This document shows, piece by piece, positions 22,508 through 64,000 of a DNA stretch of 64,000 nucleotides (within the stretch, counting starts at the first letter, position 1; the number at the start of each line of letters is the position of its first letter). A model generated the notes under the pieces. It was not told the DNA's origin and did no database searches. It saw nothing but the letters and a program-made list of their open reading frames with translations. Origin of the DNA: Perkinsus chesapeaki (taxonomy: Eukaryota; Perkinsozoa; Perkinsida; Perkinsidae); contig JAAPAO010000011.1 in the NCBI GenBank assembly GCA_013115145.1, forward strand, positions 79,705 through 143,704, given 5' to 3'. The position numbers and the translations under genes were made by a program.

Positions 22508-23612
22508 TCACCCTCCCGGCTTCGTCAGTTTGTCATTAGCCCACTTGTTGGTCACCGACTTAAGTGGCAGTTGCAATGCGGGGTCAAATTCAAACTCCTC
22601 AGTAGCTGTTATTGTCCCATAAGGTGGCGTCGTATACCGGGCAAGATGTTTAGAACACCCTCTCTCAAATCTCTCACCGAGGTTTGGTGCAATGCCGTCC
22701 CGCCTCTGCAAACGGTGAGTAACCGATGTCTTTAATCCGTAATTTCTACTGTGATAGCCAAGGATAGAAAACCTGACACCGAGTGTTACATCAAGAGCGA
22801 TACTCTGGTTTCTGTTGCTGGCATCGACTAGGCACATATACGCAGCCTCGTTCACACTAGACCACGGTACACGGTCATGAAATCGCACTATCCCGTTATT
22901 GTTTATCGGCGTGCTGTGTGGATAAACCAGAATACCCAGACGCCCGACACGTATTTCAGCCATAAAAATGTCATTCACCAGCCACCAAGGGTTGTTTGCA
23001 ACTGATAATAACATGGAGATGTCGGCAGACTTGCCTGGCATTGGAGGGATGTTCCGGAAATCAAGTAGCGGGTCACCCACCCGTAGAGGGGGAGGACCGA
23101 GGTCGAAGTCAAGAACTTTGACTTCCCATCTTGCAATACATGCTTCTATTACGTACGGCATTGATGCTATCAGAAAGATACTGAGTAAAGTGCATATTCC
23201 AATAAATACCATGATAAGGGACATCCACAGGCGGAAGAAATCAGGTTTCTCACAGTATTTCGCTTCAGGTTCTCGGTCGGGAAACGAACTGACCGATATT
23301 TCATCACACCAACGATCTCTCATGGTAGACCGTGCGACAAGAGGATTTGTAAAGCTCGAGGTGCAGCGTTCCGCTTGGATGGGCATGTATAAGACTCTTG
23401 TGAAGCCTAAATACTAAGCAAACAAACCGCACATCTTGCAGACAATCCCTACTAGGTCGGATGGTCTGTTCAGGTCACGTCACCCTCCGTGACCGCAGTC
23501 TTGGTCTATCTCGTTGCCAACCTACCGCGCTACTAGTTTCGTCGGCATGGGTTGTGTGAGGCTGAGAATAGAGGTTTGAGGGAAGCTCCAGCGTAACCTC
23601 ACTGACCCTCGA
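21766..23612. repeat. Tandem duplication, unit 1
   Basis: First unit of an approximately 2.1-kb direct tandem duplication containing one minus-strand gene, its 5' flank (23387-23612) and its 3' flank. The offset to unit 2 is about 2103 bp on the left and 2112-2115 bp at the right, the difference being small indels including 12 bp in the ORF. Left of 22150 the units are clearly related but diverged. Homology stops near 23612/25730. Confidence 0.9.
22508..23386 (-). CDS. Single-pass membrane protein with β-rich ectodomain, paralogue 1 (292 aa)
   Basis: I do not recognise the family. The protein has a hydrophilic N-terminal segment of about 50 residues, one strong membrane segment at about residues 52-75 (SLIMVFIGICTLLSIFLIASM), then about 215 residues beginning EACIARWEVKVLDFDLGPPP. 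The aromatic, β-strand-like pattern after the membrane segment (NNPWWLVND, VRFSILGYHSR) recalls the layout of LEA2/NDR1-type proteins, but that is only a topology resemblance. There is no signal peptide, so a type II orientation with the C-terminal domain outside or lumenal is inferred. The gene is a single exon among intron-rich neighbours. The paralogue at 24611-25501 shares nearly identical N-terminal residues but a diverged C-terminal domain. Confidence 0.75.
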   Translation of the reverse strand: MPIQAERCTSSFTNPLVARSTMRDRWCDEISVSSFPDREPEAKYCEKPDFFRLWMSLIMVFIGICTLLSIFLIASMPYVIEACIARWEVKVLDFDLGPPPLRVGDPLLDFRNIPPMPGKSADISMLLSVANNPWWLVNDIFMAEIRVGRLGILVYPHSTPINNNGIVRFHDRVPWSSVNEAAYMCLVDASNRNQSIALDVTLGVRFSILGYHSRNYGLKTSVTHRLQRRDGIAPNLGERFERGCSKHLARYTTPPYGTITATEEFEFDPALQLPLKSVTNKWANDKLTKPGG

Positions 23613-24610
23613 CCGACGGAAAGTGCGGACTATGACAATCTTGCCCCTGCCCGCACTATTATCCCAATTCGTCAGGATATATGGTGACTGGTTCTTTCTA
23701 TGTGCGTTTGCACGCGTACTGAATCCTGCGGTCTACAGGCTTCAACCCCCCATTCCCGAAAATATATTATTCAGGTCCTTCCGGCCTGGTGAGTCCGCAG
23801 CTCCGCAAAACATGCACATGCCAAAAAGCTATCAGAAACTCTGATAGTTTTTCATTCCGATTCAGAATAAGAGTACAAGTCGCTATGAATTCAGCGAAGG
23901 AGCATGGCTTGTTCGGCAGTGGAGCCCGATGTTACCCAATGAGCAACATCCATCCTCTATAGCTTACGAGGTTGAGGCTCCAGCAGGGTGACGAAAAGGA
24001 TTACTTAGGGTTGGTACTTTGAGGTAGCTGTTCAACTTGTCCACGAAACACATTCTTAAAATCACCACGGTGATTGCGACTGACAACCTAGCAGAAGTGG
24101 CAGGTCGTGCGCAGATGGTGAGCAAGTCTTGTTGGTACTATCATCCACATTGACGCGAATGCCACAACTCGGCTTAGTGAGATTAACTGATCAAGTCTTG
24201 GTGTCGTATTCTCTACTTATCTCGCTCATCGAGACTTGGTGTAGAGCTCAAACCAGTGTCCAGTAACAACACAAGGCATGCCAACATTGCGGAAGGAGAA
24301 CTAACTCGATCAAGTATGTTGGGTGGGGTCGGAGGCCAAAGTCCTATAATAAGTCATAACAGAGATACTCCGCAATCGCTTATCACCCAACTCTCAATGG
24401 GAATATCTTCCTCTGAGGTATGGTGCACTCAGCGCATTGGTGCAAAGAAGTGAGCAGGAAATATTACATTGTGTAGCAAGACCAGCGGAGAGTACAACCG
24501 CACAATCTAGAAAGATAGTTAGTAGAGAACAGTTAATGCAGTAGAAATAACTATTACGCAGACTTGGAAGCATGTTAGACTTCGGTTTATAGCGGTTCGT
24601 AACACCGTAG
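23387..24610. other. Inter-unit DNA between the duplicated genes
   Basis: Holds the 5' flank of paralogue 1 (23387-23612, nearly identical to 25502-25730), a unique segment about 23613-23868, and the 3' flank of paralogue 2. The conserved 5' flank includes an inverted repeat GTCACG-n8-CGTGAC at 23475-23494, repeated in the second copy, a possible protein-binding site. Confidence 0.55.
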
Positions 24611-25730
24611 TCACCCTCCCGGCTTCGTCAGTTTTTCACTCTTGCACCTGTTCGTCACCCAGCAAAGAAGCACTGGCAGTGGTGATTCGGGGTGAAATTC
24701 AAACTCCTCAATAGCTCTTATTCCCCCATAAGGTGGCGTTGAATACCGCGCCAGACTTTTTGAACACCCTCTCCCAAAGCCCTCACCGAGGTTTGGTGCA
24801 ATCCCGTCCCGTCCCTGCAAACGGTGAGTAACCGATGTCTGTAATCTGTAATCTCTACTGTGATAGCCGAGGATAGAAAACCTGACACCGAGGTTCAAAT
24901 CCAGAACGATGATCTGGTTTCTGTTGCTGGCATCGACTAGGCACACATACGCAGCCTCGTTCACACTAGACCACGGGACACGCTGATGAAATCGCACTGT
25001 CTCGTTATTGTACAGCGGTGTGCTGCTGTGTGGATATAGAACAAGACTACCCAGGGGCCCAACATATATTTCAGTCACAAAAAAATCATTCACCAGCCAC
25101 CAAGGGTTGTTTCCAATTGACAATAATAAAGAGATGTCGGCAGACTTGCCTGATATCGAAGGGATGTTCCGGAAATCAAGTGGCGGGTCACCCACCCAGA
25201 GAGGGGGAGGACCGAGGTCAAAGTCAAGAACTTTGACTTCCCATCTTGCAATACATGCTTCTATTACGTACGGCATTGATGCTAGCAGAAAGATACTGAG
25301 TAGAGTGCATATTCCAATAAATACCATGATAAGGGACATCCACAGGCGGAAGAAATCAGGTTTCTCACAGTATTTCGCTTCAGGTTCTCGGTCGGGAAAC
25401 GAACTGACCGATATTTCATCACACCAACGATCTCTCATGGTAGACCGTGCGACAAGAGGATTTGTAAAACTCGAGGTGCAGCGTTCCGCTTGGATGGGCA
25501 TGTATAAGACTCTTGTGAAGCCTAAATACTAAGCAGACAAACCGCACATCTTGCAGACAATCCCTACTAGGTCGGATGGTCTGTTCAGGTCACGTCACCC
25601 TCCGTGACCGCAGTCTTGGTCTATCTCGTTGCCAATCTACCGCCCAACTAGTCTCGTCGGCATGGGTTGTGTGAGTCTGAGAATAGAGGTTTTAGGGAAG
25701 CTCCAGCGTAACCTCACTGACCCTCGACCG
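23869..25730. repeat. Tandem duplication, unit 2
   Basis: Second unit of the 2.1-kb duplication. Its 3' flank (24267-24610) differs from unit 1 by only about two substitutions over about 340 bp, and the 5' flank is also almost unchanged, while the 3' half of the enclosed ORF is strongly diverged. Confidence 0.9.
24611..25501 (-). CDS. Single-pass membrane protein with β-rich ectodomain, paralogue 2 (296 aa)
   Basis: Paralogue of the gene at 22508-23386. About the first 85 residues, including the membrane segment, are almost identical (one clear change, IFLIASM to IFLLASM). From roughly residue 88 the two proteins diverge, with many substitutions and small insertions (for example SVANNPWW versus SIGNNPWW, and YPHS-TPINNN versus YPHSSTPLYNN), then converge on the same last residues KLTKPGG. 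Conserved islands such as VPWSSVNEAAY, LVDASNRNQ, VRFSILGYHSR and DGIAPNLGE suggest one fold kept under constraint with variable surface positions. Function unknown; a surface or secretory-pathway membrane protein is inferred from topology. Confidence 0.75.
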   Translation of the reverse strand: MPIQAERCTSSFTNPLVARSTMRDRWCDEISVSSFPDREPEAKYCEKPDFFRLWMSLIMVFIGICTLLSIFLLASMPYVIEACIARWEVKVLDFDLGPPPLWVGDPPLDFRNIPSISGKSADISLLLSIGNNPWWLVNDFFVTEIYVGPLGSLVLYPHSSTPLYNNETVRFHQRVPWSSVNEAAYVCLVDASNRNQIIVLDLNLGVRFSILGYHSRDYRLQTSVTHRLQGRDGIAPNLGEGFGRGCSKSLARYSTPPYGGIRAIEEFEFHPESPLPVLLCWVTNRCKSEKLTKPGG

Positions 25731-26252: not shown

Positions 26253-26399
26253 AATGAGACGGCGGATGAGGTTAAGTTGAAAGTTAGAAAACTACTGACG
26301 TTAGTTGCACCATGGTTCCTACCGAAGAAAACCAGGACTTTTGTGAGATGCTAGTACTGTGCCTGAGAGCTGGCATTCAAGGAAGAACTTCTCAGAGAT

Positions 26400-26419
26400 T
26401 ACTGTTACAGTAATACTGT
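26400..26419. repeat. Hexamer flip-flop element (perfect S-n-S'-n-S)
   Basis: TACTGT-t-ACAGTA-a-TACTGT: the hexamer, its reverse complement and the hexamer again, with one-base spacers. Palindrome arms around base 26406 extend to 8 bp. Confidence 0.9.
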
Positions 26420-27137
26420 ATTTCCACCGTAGAGAAAAGATCTTTGGCTTCTCGGTCTTTCTAGGGCGACTTTTCTAGGCCGACCTGAATTGAGTTGTTG
26501 AGTAACTAACCGTGGTAAGATGGAAGTAGTATCTGTCCGGGAATGGGTTGCGGCCGCGTCCCAGTACGCGGCGTACCATCGCGAGCAAAGAGGAGTAGAC
26601 GGGAGAGCTCCCTTACGAACATGTAGTCTAGTGTATCCCCGGTATTCAACTCATCATCTTTGATCAGGGATTAGCAGTTTAAGATAAGGGGACTTAAGTG
26701 GCATTTGATCCCAAGTTCGAAGAGCCCAAGAACAAAAATATCATTCGTTTCCATGTCCCGAAATTCGTTTTTCTCCGAGAGTAGTTAACGCTGGAATTTT
26801 TGACCAGCTCGGTTGCAGGGTAAGCTAATTAGCCAGATATCCACTAGTCGCACCGTGTGCAAACACACGTATATCACTGCCGAGCATCCGTCCCACCGCC
26901 GAGACTGGAACGATTATCCCGCGATAACAGCCCGTAAGAACCCTTGCCCTGGGCCCGATTGCAAGTAGGGACCTCAAAACGGGAACACAGTGTTAGGACT
27001 GATGATGTCCAGGATAGAGAACTTGAACAAAACTGGTCATTAACCACTTCATCGGAGTTGCATTGTGTTACCGGATGAACCATAAGACTCGCGGCAAGTC
27101 ACTCACCAAAATGAAACTAATTGACTACATAACAGAC

Positions 27138-27157
27138 CTGGAACTTCCAGGCTGGAA
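27138..27157. repeat. Hexamer flip-flop element (perfect S-n-S'-n-S)
   Basis: CTGGAA-c-TTCCAG-g-CTGGAA, same architecture as at 26400 but an unrelated hexamer. Confidence 0.9.
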
Positions 27158-27400
27158 GTATGACAAGCGTCATAGCCATGATTCGTGGGGGTACCACAAC
27201 CATTCCGTTGTCTCCGGACTTAACAAGTTCCAGCCAATGAAACGATAAGGACGGGAGAGAGGCTCCTGGACGAGCAGTTCTGATCAAAGGATGTTTAGTC
27301 TCGGAGAAGTGAGATGCGATGATCCTTGGAGAACTAGACACAACTATGAGAAGCTTCGTGAGATAGCATACGCGCTCCTTTGCAACGCCTTGGAGAGCAA

Positions 27401-58682: not shown

Positions 58683-58930
58683 CGTATTCTATTATTTAAC
58701 CTACTGTCATCGAGTGTTGTGATGAATACATCGTATTTGTTTAGTTTACAGTATATGATACAGTCTGATGCGCTGATTAAATGCATTATTCGGAGAAACG
58801 ATCAAGCTCGCAAGTGTCTGTCAAGTCGGGAGGGATAGCAAGGACGGGAATGAAACTCAGAGAAGTTCATGTTCGGGTGCCGGGGTTGAATTACAACTTG
58901 TAGTTCACACTGTGTAACACCCAGCCGACT

Positions 58931-58950
58931 TTTGAAGTTCAAAATTTGAA
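58931..58950. repeat. Hexamer flip-flop element (perfect S-n-S'-n-S)
   Basis: TTTGAA-g-TTCAAA-a-TTTGAA. Confidence 0.9.
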
Positions 58951-59044
58951 CCTAATCTCCGCGGATGCCTCTCTGCCTGCCAAATGACTCATTGGGAGAC
59001 AAAGAGGCAATGAGCTTCTACTCTTGTGTACAATGATTTGAAGA

Positions 59045-59064
59045 AGCAGAGTCTGCTCAGCAGG
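59045..59064. repeat. Hexamer flip-flop element (one mismatch)
   Basis: AGCAGA-g-TCTGCT-c-AGCAGG: the third unit differs from the first at its last base. Confidence 0.75.
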
Positions 59065-59077
59065 CTCAGTTCACACG

Positions 59078-59100
59078 GGATAATCCAGGCTGGATTATCC
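59078..59100. repeat. Perfect palindrome, 11-bp arms, one-base centre
   Basis: Left arm GGATAATCCAG, centre base 59089, right arm its exact reverse complement. Confidence 0.95.
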
Positions 59101-59117
59101 AGCCCATGGGAGCTTGG

Positions 59118-59137
59118 ATGCAGACTGCATCATGCAG
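59118..59137. repeat. Hexamer flip-flop element (perfect S-n-S'-n-S)
   Basis: ATGCAG-a-CTGCAT-c-ATGCAG. In related segment B (about 60382) only a single ATGCAG is present at the equivalent place. Confidence 0.92.
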
Positions 59138-59282
59138 TGCAAGGCATACATCCTCTGTTCCGGGAGGCGACAGTTGTGTTCGCATTCTGTTCGAGATCGA
59201 CATGGAAAGCGCAATTGTTCACCTGGTGAATAATCGCACTCACCATATGTTGACGCCTTGGGATTCCCGATGCATCATCTCT

Positions 59283-59302
59283 TCCGAACTTCGGAATCCG
59301 AA
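59283..59302. repeat. Hexamer flip-flop element (perfect S-n-S'-n-S)
   Basis: TCCGAA-c-TTCGGA-a-TCCGAA, nested in a larger imperfect inverted repeat (GCATC...AGAGAGATGC). Confidence 0.9.
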
Positions 59303-59633
59303 GAGAGATGCACGATGTGATGACTCCGCCCCCAAGCTACTCGCAGAGCTTCTTCGATGTGTTCAAAAGGAGAGTGATGTAAGCAGGTGATAGGATGAGG
59401 ACTTCAGAGTCGAGACGGGGATAGTATTAAGGTGCGACTGGAAACATAAAATGGTCGGCGACCATTGGTCGCTTGATGCGATGGTAGTTGAGTATGTCAT
59501 GCGCCGTGTGCGCAGTGAGGAGTCAATCAATAACTAGCTCCTTATAATGACCTTATAATTGGCTGCGGGAGAATACGAAAATGGACGTTTGAGAGGATTG
59601 TTACTGTTAGAAAGCAGCGATTATAACTACTAA

Positions 59634-59678
59634 ACAGTAGTCACTAGTGTTGTGCGGCACAACACTAGTGACTACTGT
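59634..59678. repeat. Perfect palindrome, 22-bp arms, one-base centre
   Basis: Longest perfect palindrome seen; centre base is 59656. Reading outward in 7-bp steps gives hexamers AGTAGT, ACTAGT, TTGTGC and then their complements, consistent with stacked 6+1 units. It overlaps the next element (GTGCT-a-AGCAC-a-GTGCT, 59677-59693). Confidence 0.95.
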
Positions 59679-59693
59679 GCTAAGCACAGTGCT
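59677..59693. repeat. Pentamer flip-flop element
   Basis: GTGCT-a-AGCAC-a-GTGCT: same architecture as the hexamer elements with a 5-base unit. Confidence 0.8.
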
Positions 59694-59904
59694 GATATGT
59701 ACGCAGTGCGCAGTGACTGCGTATACCAAGATATGAGAGAACAGCGTATAGGATACTCGAATAGGGAGGTTCACTCGAATAGGAAGTTGGTCAGACAGTC
59801 TGACAGATACGCTATTCGCTGTCACAGACACCATCAGAAAGTATATAAGATTTCAGTGCGAGACTTCGTAAAACGAGGGAGTGGATTAAGAAAGACGCAC
59901 TGGA

Positions 59905-59924
59905 CAGGAACTCCCTGCCAGGGA
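59905..59924. repeat. Hexamer flip-flop element (one mismatch)
   Basis: CAGGAA-c-TCCCTG-c-CAGGGA: the first unit differs from the third at one base. Confidence 0.75.
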
Positions 59925-60153
59925 GGATATTCAGGGAAAGGAATGCCCCCTTTCCCAGCGTCTCTGGTTTCCTCACGCAGATCGAGAGGAAATCGGGACT
60001 CGTGTTGGAGTGTAGTTGAGTAAATAATTTATTTATTTAAAACAAAAGTCCTGGGGAGGTGTTGTTCACGAGGGCTAGACATAGTTAACACAACAAAGGG
60101 GATAAAACCAGTGTTAACTCTTATAGTGTCTACTCATACATGCACTGCATGTC

Positions 60154-60182
60154 ACAATCACTGCATGTCATGCAGTGATTGT
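60154..60182. repeat. Perfect palindrome, 14-bp arms, one-base centre
   Basis: Centre base 60168. An overlapping palindrome with 7-bp arms (ACATGCA-c-TGCATGT) lies immediately left, at 60138-60152. Confidence 0.95.
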
Positions 60183-60334
60183 CACGAAACGGTGGGCGAG
60201 CGATATACAGTATGAATCTTGGGGTGCGCGTAGCGCATTCGCACATGCATAAGCGATGCGAACAGGTGTCATCATCTAGGAGGGGACATTCTTGTGACTG
60301 ACTCTCGTAAGGTGTATTACCGCTGTTTCTCAGC

Positions 60335-60465
60335 GGGATAATATTCACAAGGGAGGATCCACAGTGGGAGCCGGAATGCAGTATAAAGCATACATACTGT
60401 GAAGAAAGGCGACAGTTGTATTCGCATAATGCGAATCGCATTCTGTCCCCGATTGACATCATGTC
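60335..60465. repeat. Related segment B (paired with 59070-59215)
   Basis: See segment A. Removing 14 bp (palindrome insertion) at 60428-60441 restores the order ...TTGTATTCGCATTCTGT found in A as ...TTGTGTTCGCATTCTGT. Confidence 0.7.
60422..60441. repeat. Hexamer flip-flop element (perfect S-n-S'-n-S)
   Basis: TCGCAT-a-ATGCGA-a-TCGCAT. The related segment A (about 59180) has one TCGCAT only. Confidence 0.92.
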
Positions 60466-60499
60466 AATGAGATGAGGAGTCATCATTGAGGACTCCTCA
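60454..60499. repeat. Run of flip-flop hexamers at 7-bp steps
   Basis: TGACAT-c-ATGTCA-a-TGAGAT at 60454-60473 (one mismatch), then TGAGGA-g-TCATCA-t-TGAGGA-c-TCCTCA at 60473-60499 (one mismatch): a four-unit alternation of a hexamer and its complement. Confidence 0.8.
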
Positions 60500-60538
60500 T
60501 CGATTACTAACATTCCTGATTGTCTGATACAATGAGCA

Positions 60539-60559
60539 ATACTGACAAATTGTCAGTAT
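60539..60559. repeat. Perfect palindrome, 10-bp arms, one-base centre
   Basis: ATACTGACAA, centre A at 60549, then the exact reverse complement. Confidence 0.95.
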
Positions 60560-60834
60560 ACCGCCATCCTTTGAGACGCTTCAAAACTCCACTCTACATA
60601 ACACAAGCATAGGTCCTATGTCATCCTGATGAGACTTGGGTGAAGACTGATGACCAGGGCTAGTTGAACTGTTACAAGCTACCAATACTATACCGCTAGA
60701 CAATAACGCACGAAGCATTCGCTTCACATCAATGTGACGGTCCTTGGACCACCAGAGTTGACAAAGGACAGGTTGGTGACCGCCAAATTGGCGACCTATA
60801 GCAGTTTCATTCTTGTCCTCAAAGGCTGCGTTGA

Positions 60835-61152
60835 TCATTTGCATTTGCGTTTCGTCAAAGTTAAATTACCATATTTGTCTGGGTAGAGGATCTCATCGTT
60901 CTCATAGTAGAGATAATGCTTCCCCTTATCGATAGTATACTCGATAGTGGTCGGACTCGGCATAGTATAGGGCCATGTAGAAGAGTTCTCAATACCAAGG
61001 AGTCGACCAGACATGTCGATGGTGTTACAATGAAAGGTTAGGTTCAGTTCAAAGAACCAGCTATTTTTATCACAGTATTTACCACGTGGAGCAGGATAAG
61101 CCATAATGCCGAGAGCCAGCAGGTGAAAGATCATAACGACGAGGTTGCACAT
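60835..61152 (-). CDS. Small putative secreted protein (105 aa)
   Basis: Not recognised. The start at 61152 gives a hydrophobic signal peptide (MCNLVVMIFHLLALGIMAYP) with a likely cleavage after MAYPAPRG. The mature chain of about 80 residues has three cysteines (KYCDKN, FHCNTID, KRKCK), a Tyr-rich centre (KGKHYLYYENDEILYPDKYG) and N-glycosylation sequons (NLT, NSS). Single exon. It is the only gene I can support in the last 5 kb. The layout weakly resembles the ORF at 25881-26252 (signal peptide, then K/G-Y-C, then F-x-L-x-F). Host of the palindrome-rich region; function unknown. Confidence 0.5.
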   Translation of the reverse strand: MCNLVVMIFHLLALGIMAYPAPRGKYCDKNSWFFELNLTFHCNTIDMSGRLLGIENSSTWPYTMPSPTTIEYTIDKGKHYLYYENDEILYPDKYGNLTLTKRKCK

Positions 61153-61884
61153 AGAGAGTGTGACTGAGGGCGGTTGCGATTAGGGATTTTGTATTTTGTT
61201 TCTGGTACGCGTACTCAAACCATCCCGTCGTAACTGCGCCATGTTTGTTCCACAGGGCCCTTTTACTTACGAAGTCCAGGAATGAATAAATGAAAGACGT
61301 CTGGACCTCAAGCGAGTGTACTTCGCTCGACCTCCACACTAGTCGTGAACGACTTCCTTATGCAACCGGCATTTCTCGTTCCCTTTGGGTTGAGGCAATT
61401 CATCCGTAAGAGTCAATTTGGTTGGAAGGTGAATCTCTCCCTCCTTCAGAGTAGAGGAGAAAACCCGAAACCCGAATACGAGGGAGTATCGTGGCGATAC
61501 CCTTGGAACGTTGAAAACAGAACGAATAGTAAATGGCTAGGGTTATAGAGTAAGGCTTACTCAGTGAGCCTCATTCTCATTGGAGAGAACAGTAACCTCT
61601 GCAATAGAAAACCAGTATAATGGAGCGGACGCCGCCAGGGGGGAGGTGACAGTGCTCCACAATAAACCGTCCACGAAGCCTCGAGTTGCCTGAGCAGACG
61701 CGGTGTTAGATGCCGTCGAATCGATGGACTTGGCCGTAATTCACATCTTCCCGTAGCGCATTTTGAAAGATTCCCGGGGAGGTATAACGGGACATCCCGC
61801 GAGTGTCTGAACGAGGATGGAGGCTCGCTCCAAACCGCTGAGCCACGATAAGAAAAGGTCACTCGGTAAGGATACTATTTTTAG

Positions 61885-61915
61885 ATAGTTTGCTATCTTC
61901 AAGATGGCAAACTAT
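61885..61915. repeat. Inverted repeat, 15-bp arms with one T/G pair
   Basis: Centre base 61900; 14 of 15 pairs are Watson-Crick, and the remaining pair would be G-U in RNA. Confidence 0.9.
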
Positions 61916-62028
61916 GCGCTTGTGATGCCTCGAGTTAGCAAAACTGCCATCAGTCCCTCAATGTAATGGGTCATTCTAGGTGGCAAAGCAGATACTACGG
62001 GGTGTATGATATACACTGCGCAATATAC

Positions 62029-62077
62029 GGGTGGGCGCTTATTTTATATACACTGTATATAAAATAAGAGCCCATCC
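62029..62077. repeat. Long hairpin, 24-bp arms
   Basis: Inner 15 bp are perfect (AT-rich) around centre base 62053; the outer part continues with one mismatch and one G/T pair. Confidence 0.9.
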
Positions 62078-62335
62078 CTCGTAACTTTTGATACTCGATT
62101 CTCGCGAGGACGCGAAGACAGGACGATCCTTTGAACAGAGAAAACACGCGAAAATCAGCTGGCACAATTCTTTACATGTTCCCCGCGCCTTTAAGCGATC
62201 ATCAACGCTTTTCTAACGTCTCGTTGAGCAAAGATAAGCCCGACTGGGACCTTAGCTCGACGCGGTTCATGTTTCCGGTTTATTTCGATGAAATCTAGAA
62301 CTGACGTGAAGAGTATTGGCCACCTGAAGCAAGTC

Positions 62336-62355
62336 CTCAGGGCCCGAGGCTCGGG
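62336..62355. repeat. Hexamer flip-flop element (one mismatch)
   Basis: CTCAGG-g-CCCGAG-g-CTCGGG: units one and three differ at one base. Confidence 0.75.
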
Positions 62356-62356
62356 C

Positions 62357-62376
62357 CTCTTACTAAGAGTCTCTTA
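62357..62376. repeat. Hexamer flip-flop element (perfect S-n-S'-n-S)
   Basis: CTCTTA-c-TAAGAG-t-CTCTTA, starting one base after the preceding element. Confidence 0.9.
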
Positions 62377-63214
62377 GGGATGACAAGTCTGTTCAAATGC
62401 TAATAAAAGCATGCAAGAGATGGAAGAGAGGGCTTCGCTTCGTCGAGGAAGCGGATGGGTGCCACTTCGGACACCTCTTTTACCTCTGCCAACGGTTCTC
62501 TAAGCTTTTCAGTTGTTGAGTTGCCTAGTGTGATTAGCTAGTGGAGAGCGAGCCAATCCCAAGGATACCGGTTCATAGAATCCAGCACGTCATTTCGATT
62601 AGTATGCATTACATCATCAAACTCGATGGCTAGGAAAAGTTACGAGGAGTGGGCCCTTGTTTTTTATACACGCTGTACTACAGAGGCCATCAACCGTCGT
62701 ACTAACGTGGCTAACCGGGCGCGCACGGGGAGCGTGAAAAAAACTCAACAAAAGTAAGAACTTTCTTCTTCATTTTCTTCGTTATTTCGAGCAACTGAAT
62801 GAACCGTGGCGAAATAATCATGCATATATTGTATACATATGCACACAAACAGTATTTGGGTTGGATGTATGCATGCTCAAGAGTCGACGTGACAAGCTTG
62901 CCTGTGGAAACGAGAATATGAGCGGACAACGGTAGGCCCGACTACAAACACGAGGATCGGAAGTGGGATCTTGAACATATCTGAGCCCCAGTACATGTCC
63001 GTGCCAGGGCCAACAGTTGAGTACTGGTGTGGCATGATGCCGCTGGCATCAAGGCATAAGGCGCACAGATAAATGACAGTTTCCGTTGCACGCGCGCGAA
63101 ATTCGATAATACAGTGCAAACTTGTAAGGAGCGATGGACTGTGGGAGGATCATAATCTCCTTTGTAATCCTGGGATGACATAGTAATTCAGAACTACTAT
63201 GAAACACCGGACAC

Positions 63215-63265
63215 CCAAAACTACCGGTACAATCACAGAATCTGTTATTGTACCGATAGTTTTGG
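63215..63265. repeat. Long hairpin, 25-bp arms, two mismatches
   Basis: Centre base 63240; 23 of 25 positions pair. An 11-bp-arm palindrome with one mismatch (63179-63201) sits just to the left. Confidence 0.9.
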
Positions 63266-64000
63266 AAATGATCACTAAATTAGTTGAGTATAATCGCGCC
63301 ACCAGGGATTTCTCATCGCTCACAAATTACGATCCTTATGTTGTTTGACCAACATTCTCCAACTTGACCGGATTGGTATTATCTTTTGGGGTTTGCTCAC
63401 TTACTGGAGGAACAACTACGGGTTCCTAGCGGGGACCACGAACGTGGATGGCAAGCGTACAGAGGTACTAAGCTGGGCATGTTCAATCATCATGACTCAG
63501 TCACTGAATCGCATATAATTCCAGGCTGAATCGGGTTTCCCGAATTGACTGTATTTTGATGTTCTCCAAGCGGCATCAACAGCAACAGCATCATCATCAC
63601 CTCACCGCAAGCACATCGAGAGAATGATGTGATGACCAAATCAGATAAATACTATTAATCAGATGGTTTCCCACGCGCGCGCAGTTGGCATGCACGCGTG
63701 CACAACTGCCCGGGGTCAAACCCCGGCAGGAGGAATTCTCCAGGAGTTTATTTCAGGATTGCGTGGTATGCGCACTAAGGCAGGCCTTCGGCACTTCTGC
63801 TCATAACACCTATTGATTCCCTCCGTTGGGACCCTCCCATGTCCTGTCGCTCAGCAACGAGTATTTAGCGCCCGCCATTATAATCGGCTGACTGAGCACA
63901 ACCGCGTCAGTAATCCCCACTGTTAACTGTAGATGCATGACGTTTGTATATCTGTGATACTTCGCTTCGCTCATGCGAGCGCGGTTTCATTTCCGTTTCG

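Follow-up and report, generated by a model that had tools for sequence, protein, structure and literature searches.

The closest described counterparts of the sequences considered here are the footprints left by hAT transposons on excision. In yeasts and plants, Ac/Ds elements leave palindromes whose central base is the complement of the one that bordered the element. Putative microhomology is present in 85 to almost 100% of the footprints in Arabidopsis and in 88-89% of those in Saccharomyces cerevisiae, where palindrome arms reach up to 20 nt (PMC5873905). Kat1, a hAT transposase, cuts mostly 1 nt from the terminal inverted repeat (TIR) and closes the flank as a hairpin (PMC4763223), while the insect hAT element Hermes prefers the target 5'-nTnnnnAn-3' and makes 8-bp duplications (PMC10368747; PMC2803484). 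Here we describe a 22-bp unit that recurs in a stretch of 64,000 nucleotides of Perkinsus chesapeaki DNA (the window), which forms the right end of contig C13 (JAAPAO010000011.1; complete contig 143,704 bp). Each unit was probably left behind when a cut-and-paste transposon of the hAT superfamily excised, the opened hairpins having annealed through the duplicated target.

A preliminary description of the window had listed seven perfect copies of a hexamer, its reverse complement and the hexamer again, separated by single bases (26400, 27138, 58931, 59118, 59283, 60422 and 62357), together with five imperfect ones (59045, 59905, 60454, 60473 and 62336). All seven were exact on rechecking and each of the five is off in one column of the three hexamers; the tally of perfect sites was short by two that had been overlooked (59083 and 59452), so that a full scan of the window gives nine. 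Five order-1 Markov sequences contained no such site. A sharp peak at six bases plus a one-base spacer, which the description had named as a check, was found: the other 35 spacer combinations at this length (0-5 by 0-5) gave no match. Peaks at unit lengths of four and five bases, in five combinations, comprised 59 matches, with 45 inside the nine perfect sites, 8 in one-deviation sites and 6 elsewhere. These peaks are almost wholly re-readings of the hexamer sites, save those with four bases and spacers of 1 and 0 and 5 of the 16 matches with four bases and spacers of 5 and 1. The former arrangement occurs six times in the window against 0.4 expected, never inside a unit.

The complete contig holds 16 perfect 20-bp cores. 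The second spacer is complementary to the base just before the first hexamer in 14 of them, and the first spacer to the base just after the third hexamer in 15; the true unit is therefore 22 bp long, not 20. For an 8-mer T, with rc(T) its reverse complement, the full unit reads (T minus last base) + rc(T) + (T minus first base), and the three-hexamer description was incomplete in missing this 22-bp unit on an 8-bp target. We scanned the contig over a grid of T lengths from 6 to 12 and junction losses from 0 to 3, using random sequence for comparison. The cell with eight bases and a loss of one contained 13 perfect, 6 one-mismatch and 14 two-mismatch copies, against 0, 0 and 0.3 per random sequence; only in this form were perfect copies strongly over-represented (13 vs 0.0). 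The form with ten bases and a loss of three (1 perfect, 9 one-mismatch and 13 two-mismatch) proved to be the same sites re-read, not a separate class. Elsewhere in the grid any surplus of perfect copies was small: perfect copies numbered 6 vs 1.7 (length 7, loss 3) and 5 vs 3.0 (6, 2), one- and two-mismatch copies 3 and 19 vs 0.3 and 4.7 (7, 1), and two-mismatch copies 16 vs 1.7 (6, 0). A real-DNA control, 50 kb of Escherichia coli K-12, contained no unit at 0, 1 or 2 mismatches. We found no tandem repeat array, and direct repeats at distance 8 (21 vs 23.3 expected) gave no sign of simple tandem duplication or of a short Ac-type footprint. Together these data define a mutational signature that is real and sharply delimited.

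In the window, perfect units were located by direct check and unit scan at 26399..26420 (T=TTACTGTA), 27137..27158 (CCTGGAAG), 58930..58951 (TTTTGAAC), 59117..59138 (GATGCAGT) and 59282..59303 (TTCCGAAG), and by unit scan at the two overlooked sites, 59082..59103 (AATCCAGC) and 59451..59472 (ATGGTCGC). The scan also returned one-mismatch units at 60453..60474 (TTGACATG) and 61548..61569 (GAGTAAGC). No strand is assigned to these or to the other sites listed below. Pooled data, amounting to 214,313 non-N bases in 29 pieces and biased toward hAT loci and deliberately fetched paralogues, contain 30 perfect and 17 one-mismatch units.

Related copies show what the unit adds. Locus L026 (contig C562) carries a pair of perfect units 7 bases apart. 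At each of the two places five paralogues (L015, L023, L024, L025 and L027) show a single uninterrupted site, the spacing again being 7 bases. At the first site T is exact in four of the five, L027 having one base different; at the second none of the five is identical to T, four differing by one base and L027 by two. L026 is the best case for insertion. Within the window, GTGTTCGCATTCTG at the site 59179 reappears at 60421 with 14 added bases that form a unit: the perfect unit at 60421..60442 (T=TTCGCATT) is 14 bp longer than its empty counterpart, a single T at 59179..59186, which is part of a short local repeat, diverged from 60405-60446. Two further units, at 62335..62356 (T=CCTCGGGC, one mismatch) and 62356..62377 (a perfect 20-bp core with one flank mismatch), sit in a copy of a dispersed element, and a diverged, 74%-identical relative, L032, is without both and 29 bp shorter there; T is not conserved in L032 at either. 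Conversely, opposite the site GCCAGGGC at 63003..63010 the paralogue L033 has 14 extra bases, a loose unit fit that deviates at 4 of 14 comparisons. Because related copies elsewhere in the genome have a single uninterrupted site where a unit sits, the unit amounts to 14 bp inserted into an 8-bp site. The enzyme-made insertion raised in the preliminary description is probable.

The target itself has a consensus. Among 29 distinct perfect T sequences, the two positions 2 and 7 carried T and A, respectively, in 32 of 58 cases (P = 1.5e-6), compared with 121 of 460 in local control 8-mers. A second set, the 17 one-mismatch units, a few of which overlap, gave 19 of 34 (P = 1.6e-4). These are the positions of nTnnnnAn; position 3 is likewise T-biased (45% in the perfect set and 35% in the one-mismatch set). 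It had been proposed earlier that architecture and not sequence is conserved and that a process acts on local sequence. Both points are upheld, in that the architecture is kept while the sequence varies, but the target nonetheless has the consensus nTnnnnAn.

These features bear on double template switching, one of the processes that the preliminary description had put forward. In such a scheme a polymerase switches strands and returns during replication or repair, inserting a local inverted copy, and very short templated inverted duplications at breaks, made by a foldback mechanism, are reported in yeast (PMC11724301). Insertions of that kind vary in length, however, most being about 5-34 bp according to the abstract (PMC11724301), whereas the units have a fixed 8 with one base lost. 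Template switching predicts no fixed 8-bp unit, no fixed 1-nt loss and no target consensus; with the 8/1 form and nTnnnnAn unexpected under it, we do not favour it and regard it as highly improbable. The consensus, the 8-bp length and the lack of resident elements would all be accounted for by aborted hAT integration, in which an 8-bp staggered cut retains no element and its 5'-overhangs are filled in, hairpin-closed and rejoined. Against this, the product has two T copies and both 1-nt-offset hairpin joins, chemistry expected at element ends, and we know of no hairpin closure at target sites lacking an element. We consider this alternative very unlikely.

The palindromes in the DNA are consistent with a hairpin offset. 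With arms of at least 7, the window has 36 palindromes with a 1-nt centre against about 5 expected; all other centres are far nearer expectation, the largest excesses among them being at centres of 9 (9 vs 2.6) and 2 (7 vs 1.8). In the pooled DNA, 119 palindromes with arms of at least 7 have a 1-nt centre and at most 25 have any other centre from 0 to 12 nt; for arms of at least 9 the counts are 20 and at most 4. One base is lost per junction in the unit, placing the complement of the bordering base at the palindrome centre, so that the feature of a 1-nt hairpin offset is present. By comparison with Ac/Ds and Kat1, the 1-nt centre fits the hAT hairpin offset (PMC5873905; PMC4763223). Four long perfect palindromes in the window also have a 1-nt centre: 59634-59678 (arm 22), 60154-60182 (14), 60539-60559 (10) and 62038-62068 (15). 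By eye, the first has no adjoining T copies. Perhaps they are hairpins opened far from the apex.

An 8-bp target, a 1-nt offset and nTnnnnAn are all hAT properties, which implicates a cut-and-paste transposon. The earlier phrase "rather than to a copied transposon" is right in that the unit is not a copied element, but a transposon enters through its excision scar. These considerations allow us to propose a mechanism modelled on known hAT systems, in which a hAT element would be the agent, a hairpin the intermediate in P. chesapeaki and annealing the source of the uniform product. The element would insert at an 8-bp T, with a preference for nTnnnnAn, and duplicate it to give T-element-T. Excision would nick the flank one base outside each element end, and the flank 3'-OH would attack the opposite strand at the element end, leaving hairpin-capped flanks (left, t1..t7^t8'..t1'; right, t8'..t2'^t1..t8). 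Opening of the hairpins away from the apex would give 3' tails ending in rc(T) and in T. These complementary tails (up to 8 nt) could then anneal, be filled in and be sealed as (T minus last) + rc(T) + (T minus first), 14 bp longer than the empty site. Annealing through the T copies would thereby fix the length of the unit, and the 22-bp product would be the same with the nick at the edge of T or beyond it, given enough overlap and flap trimming. Microhomology repair of Ac/Ds hairpins in yeast was reportedly described by Yu et al. in 2004.

Palindromic additions from opened hairpins are also known as the P nucleotides of V(D)J coding joints, and the RAG/Transib system is alike in this respect. 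Its flush-hairpin form, T+rc(T)+T, which gives even palindromes, had no perfect copy at T lengths of 6-12 with zero loss; target duplications of Transib and RAG are 5 bp, and the grid here covered 6-12. Among hAT systems, the footprints of Ac/Ds in yeasts and plants share with the units an 8-bp target duplication, the palindrome centre and microhomology at the joint (PMC5873905). They are unlike them in the mixture of products described in Candida albicans, 28 types among 128 revertants (PMC5873905), where here one complete 14-bp form dominates. Hermes is similar in its nTnnnnAn sites and 8-bp duplications (PMC10368747; PMC2803484), and differs in that its sites hold inserted elements, whereas only scars are seen here. 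The hAT/Ace element of Tisochrysis lutea is a mobile hAT of a unicellular alga that also makes 8-bp duplications, and two reads lack the element but carry a duplication footprint (PMC10138859). Many of its elements are still resident, in contrast to the present case, and the extract available describes no palindromic 14-bp footprint for it (PMC10138859).

Within the genome, PF05699 (the hAT dimerisation domain) scored above cut-off at four places, one of them adjoined by DUF4371. Searches of PDB with one hAT fragment and of NCBIfam with three gave no match. The genome also has a clear match to DRMBL, which we take to be an SNM1/Pso2-type domain. The four hAT loci (12,252 bases) contain 8 perfect units, whereas C13 has 7 over its first 138 kb and 6 within the final 5.7 kb; the density of units at hAT loci may reflect tolerant, transposon-rich DNA, not a direct link. 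Units are present on further contigs, and two of four arbitrary 10-kb contig starts (L017-L020) are without any. C13 and these four starts together (183.7 kb) hold 16 perfect units, one of them nearly poly-T, so that if these few contigs are typical the 35.4-Mb genome would contain about 3,000. Open frames of at least 150 aa make up 34.9% of C13 and contain none of its 19 units, an avoidance that is partly circular because the presence of a unit in itself interrupts a frame. At the DNA level, window 58931-59330, window 60300-60600 and L014 had no match on another contig when used as queries; the longer query 58700-63990 matched other contigs.

Units are inherited and mutate once formed. One is common to L015:1928 and L022:376, 97%-identical paralogues on different contigs, from which we conclude that units are inherited; this also argues against the assembly artefact named as an alternative in the preliminary description. 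Among 13 one-deviation cores of C13 the odd copy is the left in 4, the middle in 6 and the right in 3, a tally in which some rows overlap or may be chance. These observations are relevant to a domesticated hAT-like host recombinase, either Kat1-like or acting in DNA elimination during nuclear development, by which intervening DNA would always be removed and the scars would be by-products of the programme. The dominance of one product and the lack of a resident element in 214 kb agree with such a host-run activity, and Kat1 itself is a domesticated hAT transposase that makes hairpins (PMC4763223). Units that change like inherited DNA, with the caveat on overlapping or chance rows just given, and a unit common to diverged paralogues speak against it, as rebuilding of scars in each generation is not expected to alter the middle copy alone. 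We judge it unlikely.

We also scored footprint forms in the pooled data by the prefix a and suffix b of rc(T) that they retain, a scan to which deletions are invisible. The full form stands out (30 vs 0). Form (3,0) was found 6 times vs 1.3, and a few cells had single matches vs 0. Form (0,0) was in excess (246 vs 51.7), which we read as short tandem repeats.

Several observations weigh against excision scarring by a hAT transposon. The classic short Ac form (1,1) shows no excess (2 vs 3.7), and in place of the heterogeneous footprint set typical of known hAT cases one full product dominates; such heterogeneity describes the known cases and is not treated as defining. In C. albicans only 51% of footprints have microhomology and P nucleotides are at most 3 nt (PMC5873905), so full-length palindromes are not a general rule. 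No intact hAT gene was seen, the hAT protein of L012 as a query matched only itself, and PF14372 and PF04937 gave no match, although their controls were silent too. By the search criteria used, C13 is without an element still flanked by T. From 30,512 repeat pairs in 214 kb came five weak T-element-T candidates, judged to be chance, and three further candidates are at chance level by estimate, not by control; no convincing TIR element lies between two T copies in these 214 kb of the 35.4-Mb genome. Ku gave a weak match interrupted by three stops in frame, which does not establish a repair bias such as a missing Ku behind the single repair product. Individual lines of evidence also have weak points: the binomial test takes both positions of one T as independent; clean similarity around 59179 and 60421 extends over only about 25 bases; the alignments of L034, L035 and L036 with window 62335-62377 are too poor to weigh on either side; the extra bases of L033 opposite 63003 match the unit form no better (4 mismatches) than two other places in that locus do; the perfect unit L020:2803 is an almost poly-T run; and some one-mismatch units overlap (L014). 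A single footprint type with no resident element in the sampled DNA is unusual. A low-copy element in a unicellular organism could leave many scars, so the missing element is not fatal to excision by a hAT transposon, and its absence leaves room for a host-run hAT recombinase.

Other features of the window and related loci were noted in passing. The dispersed element at 62040-62690 is about 650 bp long with inverted terminal repeats of roughly 40 bp, has relatives on C258, C510, C601 and C756, and is possibly Tc1/mariner-like, by eye. The final 60-odd bases of the contig, 63923-63990, have copies of 90-100% identity on at least 20 other contigs, nine within the first 250 bases and that on C147 interior, and are probably a shared repeat at assembly breaks. 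At 22508-25528 two adjoining minus-strand open frames (301 and 305 aa), 90% identical in DNA, are a tandem gene duplication. An ATR-type kinase has its best match, at 81%, on another contig and its first match with a species name, at 39%, in the dinoflagellate Effrenium, and a fumarate reductase-like protein matches Perkinsus and Symbiodinium at 63-66%; these matches make an alveolate source plausible. A short hairpin repeat at L015:1964-2020, which also matches the paralogue L022 inverted, lies near a rearrangement junction.

The signature most likely consists of hAT excision scars resolved mainly into one fixed 14-bp form. Among the matches listed in open-licence literature, as titles and abstract openings, we found no description of a single-form 14-bp palindromic footprint. 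The earlier statement that no named element has this form may hold for the exact form, although odd-centred palindromic hAT footprints are known (PMC5873905). A bolder proposal, which we offer as doubtful, is that hAT-type hairpin breaks are always repaired in this lineage along a single deterministic path, in which a palindrome of full target length is inserted and thousands of countable scars are left, and that, with no resident element seen, a host-tamed hAT recombinase may carry out the removal. A fixed-form footprint recognisable without its element would let transposon jumps be counted from an assembly alone and ordered by decay, so that the history of past jumps may be legible in the genome. 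It also supplies many natural 14-bp insertions, all of those seen here lying outside long open frames. The signature suggests that the host has one main way of repairing hairpin-capped breaks, and the choice of hairpin-opening and end-joining pathway thereby becomes testable.

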